Assembly: GCA_016401345.1 (NCBI GenBank)
Contig: JAEACG010000001.1
Coordinates: 1 to 64,000, forward strand
Direction: 5' to 3'
Length of the DNA: 64,000 nt
DNA from: Fictibacillus nanhaiensis
Lineage (GTDB): Bacteria > Bacillota > Bacilli > Bacillales > Fictibacillaceae
Shown in pieces: positions 4,628-36,512 of the stretch. Below the pieces are notes generated by a model. It did no database searches, was not told the DNA's origin, and worked only from the letters and a program-made list of their open reading frames with translations. The translations under genes were made by a program, and so were the position numbers. Every line of letters starts with the position of its first letter. The first letter of the stretch is position 1.

Positions 4628-5188
4628 ATGAAACTCGTATTATTATTTGGCCCGCAAGCGGTTGGGAAGATGACTGTTGGGCATGAGTTAGAGAAAGTCA
4701 CAAAATTAAAGCTTTTTCATAATCACATGACGATCGATCTTGTTACACCGTTTTTTGAATATGGTTCTGATGAGGGAAGAAGACTGGTGAAATTGTTTCG
4801 TTCAGAGATTTTTCAAACATATGCGAAGAGTGATCAGTATGGAATGATATTTACATATGTATGGGCGTTTAATTATAAGGAAGATTGGGAGTTTGTTGAA
4901 GGTGTGTGCCAGGTGTTTGAGAAGGAAGGAGCAGAGATCTATTTTGTCGAACTTGAATCTGATCTAGAGACAAGACTTAAGAGAAACACGACTTCTCATA
5001 GGTTAGACCATAAACCTTCTAAAAGAAATATTAAGTGGTCGGAAAATGATGTAAAGACATCGATGGAAAAGTACCGTTTGAACTCTGAAGAGGGAGAGTT
5101 AAAAAGAGAAAATTATCTGCGAATCAACAACGAAAATTTAAACCCTGATGAAGTAGCTGAACAAATAAAATATACATTTAACTTATAA
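4628..5188 (+). CDS. P-loop nucleoside kinase-like protein
   Basis: 186 residues beginning with a beta strand and a Walker A loop, GPQAVGKM at 8-15, where the usual Lys-Ser/Thr is Lys-Met. FHNHMTIDLV resembles the substrate-binding helix of shikimate/gluconate-type kinases, and a lid-like basic stretch follows (LETRLKRNTTSHR). These features suggest a small AAA or kinase-family protein that phosphorylates an unknown small molecule. The ribosome site AGAGGTGAAGAG is good. Single gene, sharing a terminator with the convergent SRPBCC gene. Confidence 0.75.
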   Translation: MKLVLLFGPQAVGKMTVGHELEKVTKLKLFHNHMTIDLVTPFFEYGSDEGRRLVKLFRSEIFQTYAKSDQYGMIFTYVWAFNYKEDWEFVEGVCQVFEKEGAEIYFVELESDLETRLKRNTTSHRLDHKPSKRNIKWSENDVKTSMEKYRLNSEEGELKRENYLRINNENLNPDEVAEQIKYTFNL

Positions 5189-5214
5189 AAAAAGGACCTA
5201 AGAGGTCCTTTTTT
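5187..5214. terminator. Bidirectional terminator between convergent genes
   Basis: AGGACCT and AGGTCCT pair around a 3-nt loop. A-rich and T-rich flanks extend the stem and supply a T run in both directions, serving the kinase-like gene and the SRPBCC gene. Confidence 0.85.
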
Positions 5215-28237: not shown

Positions 28238-28726
28238 ATGAACTTTTCAATAATAGCTGCTATGGACGAAAATAGAGTGATAGGCAAAGACAATGATTTA
28301 CCTTGGAGGTTACCAAAAGATTGGAAGTACGTACAAAAGATTACGATGGGAAAAACTATCGTTCTAGGTAGGAAAAACTTTGAATCTATTGGTAAAGCGT
28401 TGCCTGGAAGGAAGAACATTGTAATTACGAGAAAAAATGATTTCTCACCTCAAGATTGTATCGTTGTCCATTCTATTGACGAGGTGTTGAAGACGTGTGA
28501 TGGCGATGAAGAAGTCATAATTTTTGGTGGAGAGGAAATCTATAGGCTGTTTATGCCGATCGTAACTAAAATGTACCTTACAAAAATACATCATGCTTTT
28601 GAAGGAGATACTTTCTTTCCAGAATTCAATGAAAGTGATTGGAAAGAGGTTTCTAGAGTCAAAGGAATCCAGGACAAAGATAATCCGTACATCTATTATT
28701 TTCATCAATACATTAGGGAATTGTGA
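28238..28726 (+). CDS. dfrA: Dihydrofolate reductase
   Basis: 162 residues, full length. IAAMDENRVIGKDNDLPWRLPKDWKYV is the N-terminal substrate and NADPH loop. TIVLGRKNFESIGKALPGRKNIVITRK binds NADPH, and EVIIFGGEEIYRLFMP plus LTKIHHAFEGDTFFPEF are the C-terminal signatures. It reduces dihydrofolate to tetrahydrofolate. GRKNFESIG has Asn where most enzymes have Thr, a feature I recall from the B. cereus/B. anthracis enzyme. It is not next to thyA here; AAAGGT lies before the ATG. Confidence 0.93.
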   Translation: MNFSIIAAMDENRVIGKDNDLPWRLPKDWKYVQKITMGKTIVLGRKNFESIGKALPGRKNIVITRKNDFSPQDCIVVHSIDEVLKTCDGDEEVIIFGGEEIYRLFMPIVTKMYLTKIHHAFEGDTFFPEFNESDWKEVSRVKGIQDKDNPYIYYFHQYIREL

Positions 28727-28774: not shown

Positions 28775-28803
28775 TTGACAGAAATTTCTAATCATCTTAT
28801 CAT
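28775..28803 (+). promoter_or_regulatory. Strong SigA-type promoter of the T-box leader
   Basis: TTGACA at 28775-28780 and TATCAT at 28798-28803, with a 17-nt spacer. Transcription should start near 28810, giving a leader of about 270 nt before the HIT gene. Confidence 0.85.
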
Positions 28804-28809
28804 TAGTAA

Positions 28810-29064
28810 AAGTTTTCCATCGTTTAAACGTGATGATTAGGAGTAGTAAGGATCTATTTGTTGTTTAGAGAGCTGCTGATTGGGTGCAATGCAGTCAACA
28901 TATATCCTGAACTCGCCTAGGAGTGGACAGACTAAAATGAAGTCTGTACGGTTAACCCCCGTAATCAGGTTCTGAGGTTTGCATGGATTCTTTGCAAACA
29001 AAGAAGAGTGGTACCACGTTAGGAAAAGCCTATCGTCTCTTTATCGAGATGATAGGCTTTTTTG
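28810..29064 (+). promoter_or_regulatory. T-box riboswitch (tRNA-responsive leader), probably leucine-specific
   Basis: All T-box landmarks appear in order: the AGTA motif in GGAGTAGTAAGG (28840-28851), AGAGAGC (28867-28873), and the distal-loop region GGGTG (28882-28886). AGGAT pairs with ATCCT across stem I, and the specifier loop reads GAACTCG (28909-28915). GTTTGCA/TGCAAAC is stem III. The T-box core AGAGTGGTACCACG (29005-29018) and the terminator GCCTATC...GATAGGC with T run (29028-29063) follow. CTC at 28912-28914, followed by G, fits a leucine specifier. Uncharged tRNA should favour the antiterminator and express the HIT and PP2C genes. Confidence 0.9.
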
Positions 29065-29083
29065 TATTAAGGGGGAGATAGCA

Positions 29084-29539
29084 ATGAGTAAGGATTGTTT
29101 TATTTGTGACAAACATACAGGCACTATTGATACAGTTGGTGTAAAAATATTTGAAGATGATTATGTTTATGTGGGCCATATCGATAAAGGTGTTCGCCCT
29201 TCTTACCTAGGGCATATCATGATCGATTTGAAACGACACGCACCAGGTCTTGGTGATCTGACGATTGAAGAAGCTAATGCATTCGGCCAGATCATGGCTC
29301 GAGTGAGCAAAGCAGTGGAAGAGACAGAAAATGCTGAGCACATTTATGCACTCGTATCAGGTAATTCTGTTGCACATCTTCATATGCACATCGTGCCACG
29401 TTATCCAAATACACCAGAAGAGTACTGGGGACCGAATGAAGTCTATAGTTGGGCAGATGCTCCGTTTGGAATGAATGAAGATATAGTAAAAGTTTGCGAA
29501 CGAGTGAGAAATTATTTGGAGGAGAATAGTGATGAATAG
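29084..29539 (+). CDS. HIT-family (histidine triad) hydrolase
   Basis: 151 residues. The triad HLHMHIVPR occurs near residue 110. CFICDKHTG near the N-terminus provides a possible CxxC metal or structural motif, and YVYVGHIDKG...GHIMIDLKRH is typical HIT core. HIT proteins hydrolyse nucleoside phosphoramidates or dinucleotides, and some remove aminoacyl-AMP. ATG 29084 follows GGGGGAG; earlier in-frame starts lie within the T-box leader. It is translated with the PP2C-like gene by an 8-nt overlap. Confidence 0.92.
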   Translation: MSKDCFICDKHTGTIDTVGVKIFEDDYVYVGHIDKGVRPSYLGHIMIDLKRHAPGLGDLTIEEANAFGQIMARVSKAVEETENAEHIYALVSGNSVAHLHMHIVPRYPNTPEEYWGPNEVYSWADAPFGMNEDIVKVCERVRNYLEENSDE

Positions 29540-30335
29540 TCCTAATATGAAGTGGGTAGGAAGCGATAAAACATTTATAGATGAATTAGATATAACAGAA
29601 GTACAAAACGTAACCTTGGGCAGGTTCGGAGGTAATTCTAAAGCAGGTTCATATAAAAATGAAGATGGATGCTTAGTGTGGGCGAACGAAGCAGAAAACT
29701 GGGAGTTTACAATGGTACTTGATGGTCATAAAACAGCACAAAGTGTTGAACTGGTTTTAAATCACTTTGAAAAGAATGAGAATGAAATTAAGTCTGTTCT
29801 CTCTGAATCTGCAAGTGCAGCTCTTAAAAAGCTAGATTATCTTATACTTAATATCTTTCAAGATCCTGATTTTATGGATTCTTGTCGAAAAACAACAGGT
29901 GAAACGGCATGTCTGATCGTTGTTCGAAAAGGAAAATATTTATGGTGGTTCTCAATTGGGGATTGTATTCTTCATCTTTTTCATCCTGAGCTGATTGCAC
30001 TAGGTGAAAGACAGCTTGTTCAGCGTAGTTTTTATGAGTGGGTCGGTGAAGTGAACACATTTGAACTTCCAGTACCTTGTTATAGCTCAGGTAAGAAAGA
30101 AATGAGAAAGGGACTTAACCAAATTTTCATGACAACGGATGGGTTGACTGAATGTCCGGGTGTTGCATTTGAAGATGCTGGAGAGGTACAAAAAGTATTG
30201 AGCGATAACGGTATGAAAGAAGGCGTTCGATTTCTATTAGATGAAATAAGAAGAAATAATGTAAGAGATAGCACGACCATCATTGCATGGTCTGTTGATA
30301 TTGAGGAAACAGCTAGTTTGCCAAGTGATCTGTAA
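29532..30335 (+). CDS. PP2C-like serine/threonine phosphatase
   Basis: 267 residues. PP2C motifs are recognisable: GGNSKAGSYKNEDGCL (first metal-binding region), TMVLDGHKTAQS (the DGH motif), GETACLIVVRKGKYLWWFSIGDC (GDS-like), MTTDGLTEC (the DG motif) and RDSTTIIAW (terminal Asp). ATG 29532 is chosen after GGAGGAG; GTG 29529 is an alternative. Predicted to dephosphorylate Ser/Thr phosphoproteins; the target is unknown. A 12-bp hairpin spans its stop codon without a T run. Confidence 0.8.
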   Translation: MNSPNMKWVGSDKTFIDELDITEVQNVTLGRFGGNSKAGSYKNEDGCLVWANEAENWEFTMVLDGHKTAQSVELVLNHFEKNENEIKSVLSESASAALKKLDYLILNIFQDPDFMDSCRKTTGETACLIVVRKGKYLWWFSIGDCILHLFHPELIALGERQLVQRSFYEWVGEVNTFELPVPCYSSGKKEMRKGLNQIFMTTDGLTECPGVAFEDAGEVQKVLSDNGMKEGVRFLLDEIRRNNVRDSTTIIAWSVDIEETASLPSDL

Positions 30336-30368: not shown

Positions 30369-30740
30369 TTATTTGATATCAATATAATGCTGAAGCACGC
30401 GTGGTGGAATATATTTTAGTGGGAGTGGGCGTAAGGAAACGGTAATGGTGTGGGGCATGATTGAGTCTTTTTGAGCTTGTTTAAGGCAGTTGTACATGTT
30501 CTTGCCTCCGACAGAGTTGGCAGAGTGTATGGTTATTCGGTTCGCAAATAACTTTTCATTAACCATCATTTGTACAAGCATCATGCCGTTTCTCGTTCTG
30601 CTCAGTAAATCATGATCTAATGATAAGTGTTCAATATCATGGTTCCTCAGAAGATCCAAACATTCATCTATTGTTTCAACGAAGACATATCCTTCAGGCG
30701 GGCTCCGATAATCATCCATAAAAACACTAATCTTTTTCAT
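30369..30740 (-). CDS. Cyclic-phosphate-processing receiver domain protein
   Basis: 123 residues resembling a stand-alone receiver-like domain: MKKISVFMDDYRSPP at the start, HLSLDHDL near residue 40, and TIHSANSVGGKNM. The DDYRSPP and SLDHDL combination is typical of proteins annotated as cyclic-phosphate processing receiver domains. GGAAGGGAG precedes the ATG, within a GC-rich hairpin that could mask it. Partner and substrate are unknown. Confidence 0.75.
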   Translation of the reverse strand: MKKISVFMDDYRSPPEGYVFVETIDECLDLLRNHDIEHLSLDHDLLSRTRNGMMLVQMMVNEKLFANRITIHSANSVGGKNMYNCLKQAQKDSIMPHTITVSLRPLPLKYIPPRVLQHYIDIK

Positions 30741-36077: not shown

Positions 36078-36512
36078 TTAAATCAATAGCGTTCGGGTAA
36101 TCGCTGGATCAGATTTTCTGGTTTAGAGGAAAGTCCATGCTCGCACGGATCTGAGATGACCGTAATGATCGTGCCTGGCCAAAAAATAAGCCAGGGTAGA
36201 TTGGTTTGCTTGTATAAAGCTTACTGGACTAACGGCAGGGAACGCACCTAAGTCTTCGGATATGGTGTTAATACCTTGAAAGTGCCACAGTGACGTAGTC
36301 CCGATGGAAACAAAGGGAGTGGAACGAGGTAAACCCCACGAGCGAGAAACCCAAATTATGGTAGGGGAGTTTCCCATTTCGGAATTGAACGATTGGGAGA
36401 ACAAGAAGCCAAGGCTTTTTGTAGATAGATGATTACCACCGGTGTACGAGGCTACCAGCCGTTTGTAGTACTAAGGAACAGAACATGGCTTACAGAACGT
36501 TATTGGTACCTA
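36078..36512 (+). ncRNA. rnpB: RNase P RNA, class B (Bacillus type)
   Basis: The conserved core GTTCGGGTAATCGCTGG appears at about 36089. It is followed by AGAGGAAAGTCCATGCTCGC, CTTCGGATATGG, GAAAGTGCCACAGTGACG, GGTAAACCCC, CGAGCGAGAAACCCAAAT and TAGATAGATGATTACC, closing with TGGCTTACAGAACGTTATT. The ends CAATAGCGTT and AACGTTATTG pair as helix P1. The length of about 435 nt and the class B insertions match Bacillus RNase P RNA, which cleaves tRNA precursors with RnpA. Confidence 0.97.

Follow-up and report, generated by a model that had tools for sequence, protein, structure and literature searches.

A probable leucine T-box leader ahead of a paired HIT-family protein and PP2C-like phosphatase in Fictibacillus and other Bacillales

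We analysed a stretch of 64,000 nucleotides from Fictibacillus nanhaiensis (contig JAEACG010000001.1 of assembly GCA_016401345.1, positions 1 to 64,000; hereafter the window), in which a T-box leader precedes genes for a HIT-family protein and a PP2C-like phosphatase. The named loci closest to that of the window also belonged to Fictibacillus. An earlier note, made from the DNA letters alone, had described a promoter, a complete T-box with its core and the two genes, and all of these were found where it had put them:

28775..28803, + strand: sigma-A-type promoter-like site TTGACA-17-TATCAT (-35 at 28775-28780, -10 at 28798-28803), read from the sequence and also listed by the promoter scan
28824..29043, + strand: T-box leader (RF00230) from Stem I to antiterminator; cmscan 123.1 bits against a gathering score of 93, E 8.4e-27
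28909-28915, + strand: specifier loop GAACTCG, read from the sequence
28912..28914, + strand: specifier codon CUC (leucine; CTC in the DNA), from the sequence, an alignment of 41 leaders and the tRNA-Leu(GAG) of the genome
29005..29040, + strand: antiterminator, AGAG (29005-29008) pairing with CUCU (29037-29040), bulge UGGU at 29009-29012
29016-29023 with 29029-29036, + strand: second helix of the antiterminator, ACGUUAGG with CCUAUCGU, one U-U mismatch
29026..29063, + strand: intrinsic terminator, stem 29026-29039/29046-29059, then TTTT
29070..29077, + strand: likely ribosome binding site AGGGGGAG for the HIT gene, read from the sequence
29084..29539, + strand: HIT-family protein of 151 amino acids (PF01230, E 9.1e-11), with the HLHMH triad H98/H100/H102 and with C5/C8
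29532..30335, + strand: PP2C-like phosphatase of 267 amino acids (PF13672, E 9.3e-13, 48.6 bits against a cut-off of 24)

From these features we conclude, with a probability of roughly 85%, that HIT and PP2C form a two-gene operon under a canonical T-box which is specific for leucine and acts by transcription attenuation. The RNA parts, the leucine specificity and the gene order come from sequence and its comparison among relatives, and from them we infer switching in the cell. With charged tRNA-Leu(GAG), the hairpin at 29026-29059 would end transcription ahead of the HIT gene. Leucine shortage, or an inhibited leucyl-tRNA synthetase, would leave tRNA-Leu(GAG) uncharged; CUC would then be bound by its anticodon and UGGU by the ACCA of its 3' end, so that the antiterminator would form and the operon would be transcribed.

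The covariance model of Rfam, a check suggested by the earlier note, accepted the T-box, whose specifier reads CUC. The match spans the full model (1-219); with it, the genome has 22 T-box matches in all, and 21 of these lie above the cut-off. Folding gives the window terminator an energy of -21.9 kcal/mol (z -7.6), which none of 200 shuffles equalled, and the strand CGUCUCU is common to terminator and antiterminator. A simple terminator scan of the region did not list this hairpin, which is detected by folding. Across the leaders, 96.7% of terminator cells were paired; double-change cells numbered 32, where shuffles gave 12.5, and the covariation score was reached by none of 500 shuffles. For the antiterminator, 89.9% of cells were paired and 6 double-change cells were seen against 1.2 in shuffles. 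The RNAalifold consensus comprised 46 pairs, 21 of them with a kept double change. As expected of a T-box, the leader has a UGGN bulge and a terminator and an antiterminator that exclude each other, with weak covariation on the antiterminator side. As for the promoter, similar sites are visible upstream in Fictibacillus leaders; the scan of the region listed 2 sites against a shuffle mean of 5.9, i.e. a depletion, and the scan alone is therefore no evidence.

The amino acid sensed is very likely leucine, judging from variation among relatives, tRNA identity and the genes that similar leaders precede. Among 41 distinct HIT leaders, the window's included, the aligned specifier was CUC in 35, CUU in five and CUA in one, so that all changes are synonymous when read in the leucine frame; the next base was a purine in every leader, and the bulge was UGGU in 39. 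Read as AAC or as ACU, the triplet does not vary across leaders, so variation alone excludes neither of these frames. Both are disfavoured because tRNA-Leu(GAG), which the genome encodes, carries discriminator A, the Watson-Crick partner for the UGGU bulge, while the tRNAs of the shifted frames carry others (Asn G, Thr U, Ser(GCU) G; identities and discriminators from ARAGORN on 10 of 30 fetched tRNA loci). Together with the leaders found before leuA (see below), frame, synonymous variation and discriminator agree with the leucine specifier CTC that the earlier note had read.

The leader resembles leucine T-boxes of the Bacillus subtilis ilv-leu, leuS and yvbW type in its Rfam match, GAA-CUC specifier, UGGU bulge and terminator/antiterminator switch. 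Unlike them, it has a target that is neither synthetase, biosynthesis nor transport. In a published T-box survey, 62% of T-boxes stood before synthetases, 12% before transport, 18% before biosynthesis and 8% before other or unknown genes (PMC2494555). The core of the window leader is GAGUGG with CGUCUCUUU, whereas most other T-boxes of the genome have GGGUGG with CGUCCCU. The papers searched, a set that left supplements, TBDB and RegPrecise outside, yielded none linking a T-box to a HIT-family gene or PP2C, in agreement with the earlier note, which knew of no described T-box-HIT-PP2C unit. Of two papers bringing together T-box and histidine triad, one concerns Pht surface proteins in its accessible text (PMC6212727), and the accessible text of the other draws no link between the two (PMC7438776). 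The mechanism is known, and the HIT-PP2C pair is an unusual, conserved T-box target.

Conservation was surveyed across the order in 397 genomes of 135 genera, leaders being called by a profile built from the HIT-leader family. A HIT orthologue was present in 63 genomes (27 genera), followed by a PP2C match in 58 of them and preceded by the leader in 33, across 12 coded families. Within the genus of the window, 12 of 13 genomes carried the leader. A scan of named genomes gave 67 HIT loci, with a PP2C match directly downstream in 63 and a leader upstream in 19, all of which pass Rfam; no further gene family occurred in more than 11 of these 67 loci when a wider operon was sought. At the 51 order loci from families other than the window's, 23 leaders were called by the profile and 19 of them pass Rfam, which detects no T-box at the remaining 28 loci. 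After deduplication, 109 loci were left: all 41 with a leader had a PP2C match, and 8 of the 68 without a leader also lacked PP2C. In a sample of 398 genomes of the phylum, HIT was found at E 1e-25 only in the window's own genome; PP2C was found in three others, with no HIT match inside the 5.5 kb fetched around each. The order whose conservation the earlier note had proposed to check is therefore kept in relatives as far as the genes are concerned, and the leader accompanies them only in part: the T-box-HIT-PP2C unit is real and conserved, yet optional.

On the joint tree the leader state changed 9 times, and on the HIT tree 11 times against 33.5 in 200 shuffles (shuffle minimum 27; L101 is absent from the trees). 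With the count on the HIT tree far below its shuffles, the leader is, on this comparative evidence, inherited in clades and was gained or lost several times. At one leaderless HIT-PP2C pair (L080), a further T-box (4954-5198, + strand, 102.2 bits) lies downstream, before a different gene.

The HIT assignment of the first gene rests on the HxHxH motif and the HIT fold, seen in the Pfam match, an alignment of 67 sequences and an AlphaFold2 model (pLDDT 88.9). The triad, the Pfam domain and the predicted fold are shared with Fhit, Hint/HinT and the diadenosine tetraphosphate (Ap4A) phosphorylase. In contrast to these, the window protein scores below the NCBIfam equivalog cut-offs (none was reached; 18.4 bits against 206 for Hint/HinT, PRK10687) and falls in a Bacillales group whose members usually have PP2C as partner. 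Among PDB structure matches, Hint ranks below Ap4A phosphorylase, Fhit and several uncharacterised HIT proteins, and its alignments are shorter, stopping near model residue 118; the five best-ranked matches are HIT proteins for which no function is stated, with identities of 15-24%. HIT enzymes confer resistance to a form of microcin C by cleaving a phosphoramidate aminoacyl-adenylate, and the MccH clade is marked by the motif ExxxxxHxHxKxx (PMC7157772). The window protein shares with MccH the HIT fold with a C-terminal extension. It differs in having His, not Lys, as third catalytic residue (H102, invariant in 67 of 67) and in lacking the leading Glu (position 92 is S). In an anti-phage library, the HIT protein matched only ThsC, at 17.8 bits, and PP2C had no match. 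The earlier note had suggested that this protein acts on aminoacyl-AMP. Because the fold ranking favours Ap4A phosphorylase and Fhit over Hint and because the MccH signature is absent, we keep this activity as a hypothesis.

The second gene is assigned to the PP2C phosphatases by its Pfam score and by its aspartates: D45, D64, D144, D203 and D246, which we take to be the metal site, are invariant among 62 PP2C sequences. It resembles PP2C_2 phosphatases in these respects and departs from them in that their DGH motif is mostly DAH in relatives; a PDB sequence search, including one with the 62-sequence profile, gave no match. In the window, the HIT stop and the PP2C start overlap by 8 bases, and the gap between the aligned parts had a median of 11 bases over 63 loci (range -10 to 34). 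In Alkalihalobacterium chitinilyticum, HIT and PP2C share a single open frame of 416 amino acids (L119, 3001-4251); this is a lone case and could be an assembly fault. When nine loci were read in three frames, PP2C was interrupted or shifted in five (L056, L077, L176, L194 and L197) and lost in L178; L056 and L030 are of the same genome, as are L077 and L156. In L194 the gene is broken by an insertion that, by eye, we presume to be akin to an IS200/IS605 transposase. The HIT gene can therefore persist without the phosphatase. The signalling step that the earlier note had raised as possible for the latter stays conjectural.

What the pair does is a more tentative matter. The HIT protein may clear an adenylate arising around leucyl-tRNA synthetase (aminoacyl-AMP, a nucleotide analogue, or diadenosine tri- or tetraphosphate, Ap3A/Ap4A) while PP2C removes a phosphate mark of stress, a proposal we hold to be possible at best. 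Somewhat more doubtful still is that the whole forms a dedicated leucyl-tRNA stress module, whose T-box would couple tRNA-Leu charging to a nucleotide-clearing HIT protein and a protein phosphatase. If so, stalled charging would reset adenylate by-products and protein phosphorylation, and T-box output would reach beyond amino-acid supply into clean-up or signalling. The amino acid that a T-box senses is used as a guide to what the genes behind it do, and a leucine T-box kept with HIT-PP2C over many families offers a regulatory clue to the role of this uncharacterised pair.

Several observations weigh against leucine-dependent control of the pair and against the functions proposed for it. As for the switch, the terminator pairs with a double change number four, a value matched by 57 of 500 shuffles; the antiterminator partner slid by 3 columns also gives 6 double-change cells, and one antiterminator pair is unpaired in 24 of 36. 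Two of the 41 leaders have no UGGU bulge (UGAU in L106, UGGA in L115), and four (L196-L199) fall below the Rfam gathering score, although the family count stays at 12 when they are dropped. As for the genes, 30 of the 63 HIT-bearing order genomes have no such leader, which means that the HIT-PP2C module can do without T-box control, and four of the loci with an interrupted or frameshifted PP2C (L056, L077, L194, L197) are leader-bearing. Finally, no tested result ties the HIT protein to leucyl-adenylate, and the similar leaders before GNAT genes, an arrangement that would suit detoxification, are single cases.

Among the alternatives, it is conceivable, with odds clearly on the lower side, that an ordinary leucine T-box was duplicated from leuA or a leucine permease and that the pair is merely co-induced, contributing nothing itself when leucine is short. 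The window leader had 70 matches in the 397 genomes (two candidates were scored per genome, and others may be missed). Of 20 fetched places away from HIT genes, ten lay before leuA (identified by NCBIfam at one locus and by sequence likeness at the remaining ones), three before APC permeases and two before GNAT genes, and three were near methyltransferases, one near unknown genes and one before pyrroline-5-carboxylate reductase. Within the window's genome, the T-box closest to the HIT leader belongs to an APC permease and likewise has GAA-CUC; such T-boxes occur at that type of permease (L007) and at a leuS-like gene (L008, by sequence likeness). In a comparison with the genome's 21 other T-boxes, the HIT leaders group as one clade. 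Once leaders of leuA, GNAT and methyltransferase genes were included (L220 left out), single origin had a p-AU (approximately unbiased test) of 0.489; the wider tree neither shows nor rejects it, and we have withdrawn the one-clade conclusion. These similar leaders, the outcome of the wider tree and the leaderless pairs would all suit a duplication. Against it, leucine specifier and terminator are kept over 12 coded families, and the leaders track the divergence of the HIT gene (Mantel r 0.804, reached by 0 of 9999 permutations), unlike fresh insertions.

About equally tentative is that the HIT protein is an Ap3A/Ap4A hydrolase which, with PP2C, would reset alarmone and phospho-signals from stalled synthetases. 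The fold ranking described above places Ap4A phosphorylase and Fhit over Hint; it does not settle the substrate, given the functionless labels and low identity of its top five rows and the truncated Hint alignments.

On the model of agrocin-84, the HIT protein could instead serve inducible self-protection by cleaving a nucleotide antibiotic toxic to leucyl-tRNA synthetase, with uncharged tRNA as the alarm. The microcin C resistance of HIT enzymes and the similar leaders before two GNAT genes, one best matched by PF13302, speak for this, yet we find it unlikely: the window protein lacks the MccH signature, the leaders before GNAT genes are not kept in relatives, and it is hard to see what part PP2C would play.

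The GNAT acetyltransferases with a similar Leu T-box leader were seen at L202 and L209. In searches around them the leader was present only at the starting loci (L224, L233) and at 0 of 8 and 0 of 9 other checked loci (the second search had 22 matches, 10 of them fetched), and the detoxification theme was rejected on this ground. Class I methyltransferases are preceded by a similar leader at L203, L208 and L210 (coded families f17, f6 and f21), the gene at L208 being about 500 bases away from it.

At six loci (L065, L083, L088, L091, L099 and L102) HIT sits between rnr upstream and smpB, which is followed by the transfer-messenger RNA gene ssrA. PP2C accompanies it in five of the six, ending 53 bases before smpB in L083. 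This position beside ribosome-rescue genes is another hint of translation stress and may equally be hitch-hiking; five of the six loci form one clade in the joint tree, with L065 apart.

Upstream of the leader in the window lies a dihydrofolate reductase gene (28238-28726, + strand; nearest NCBIfam DfrD/G/K at 247.5 bits, below the cut-off of 300), relatives of which are also upstream in L053, L054 and L055. Convergent with the PP2C gene is one for a cREC receiver-domain protein (30369-30740, - strand), found also at eight Fictibacillus loci (L053-L060) and not at that of F. macauensis (L080). Further downstream, RNase P RNA class B is encoded at 36089-36497 (+ strand, 295.7 bits).
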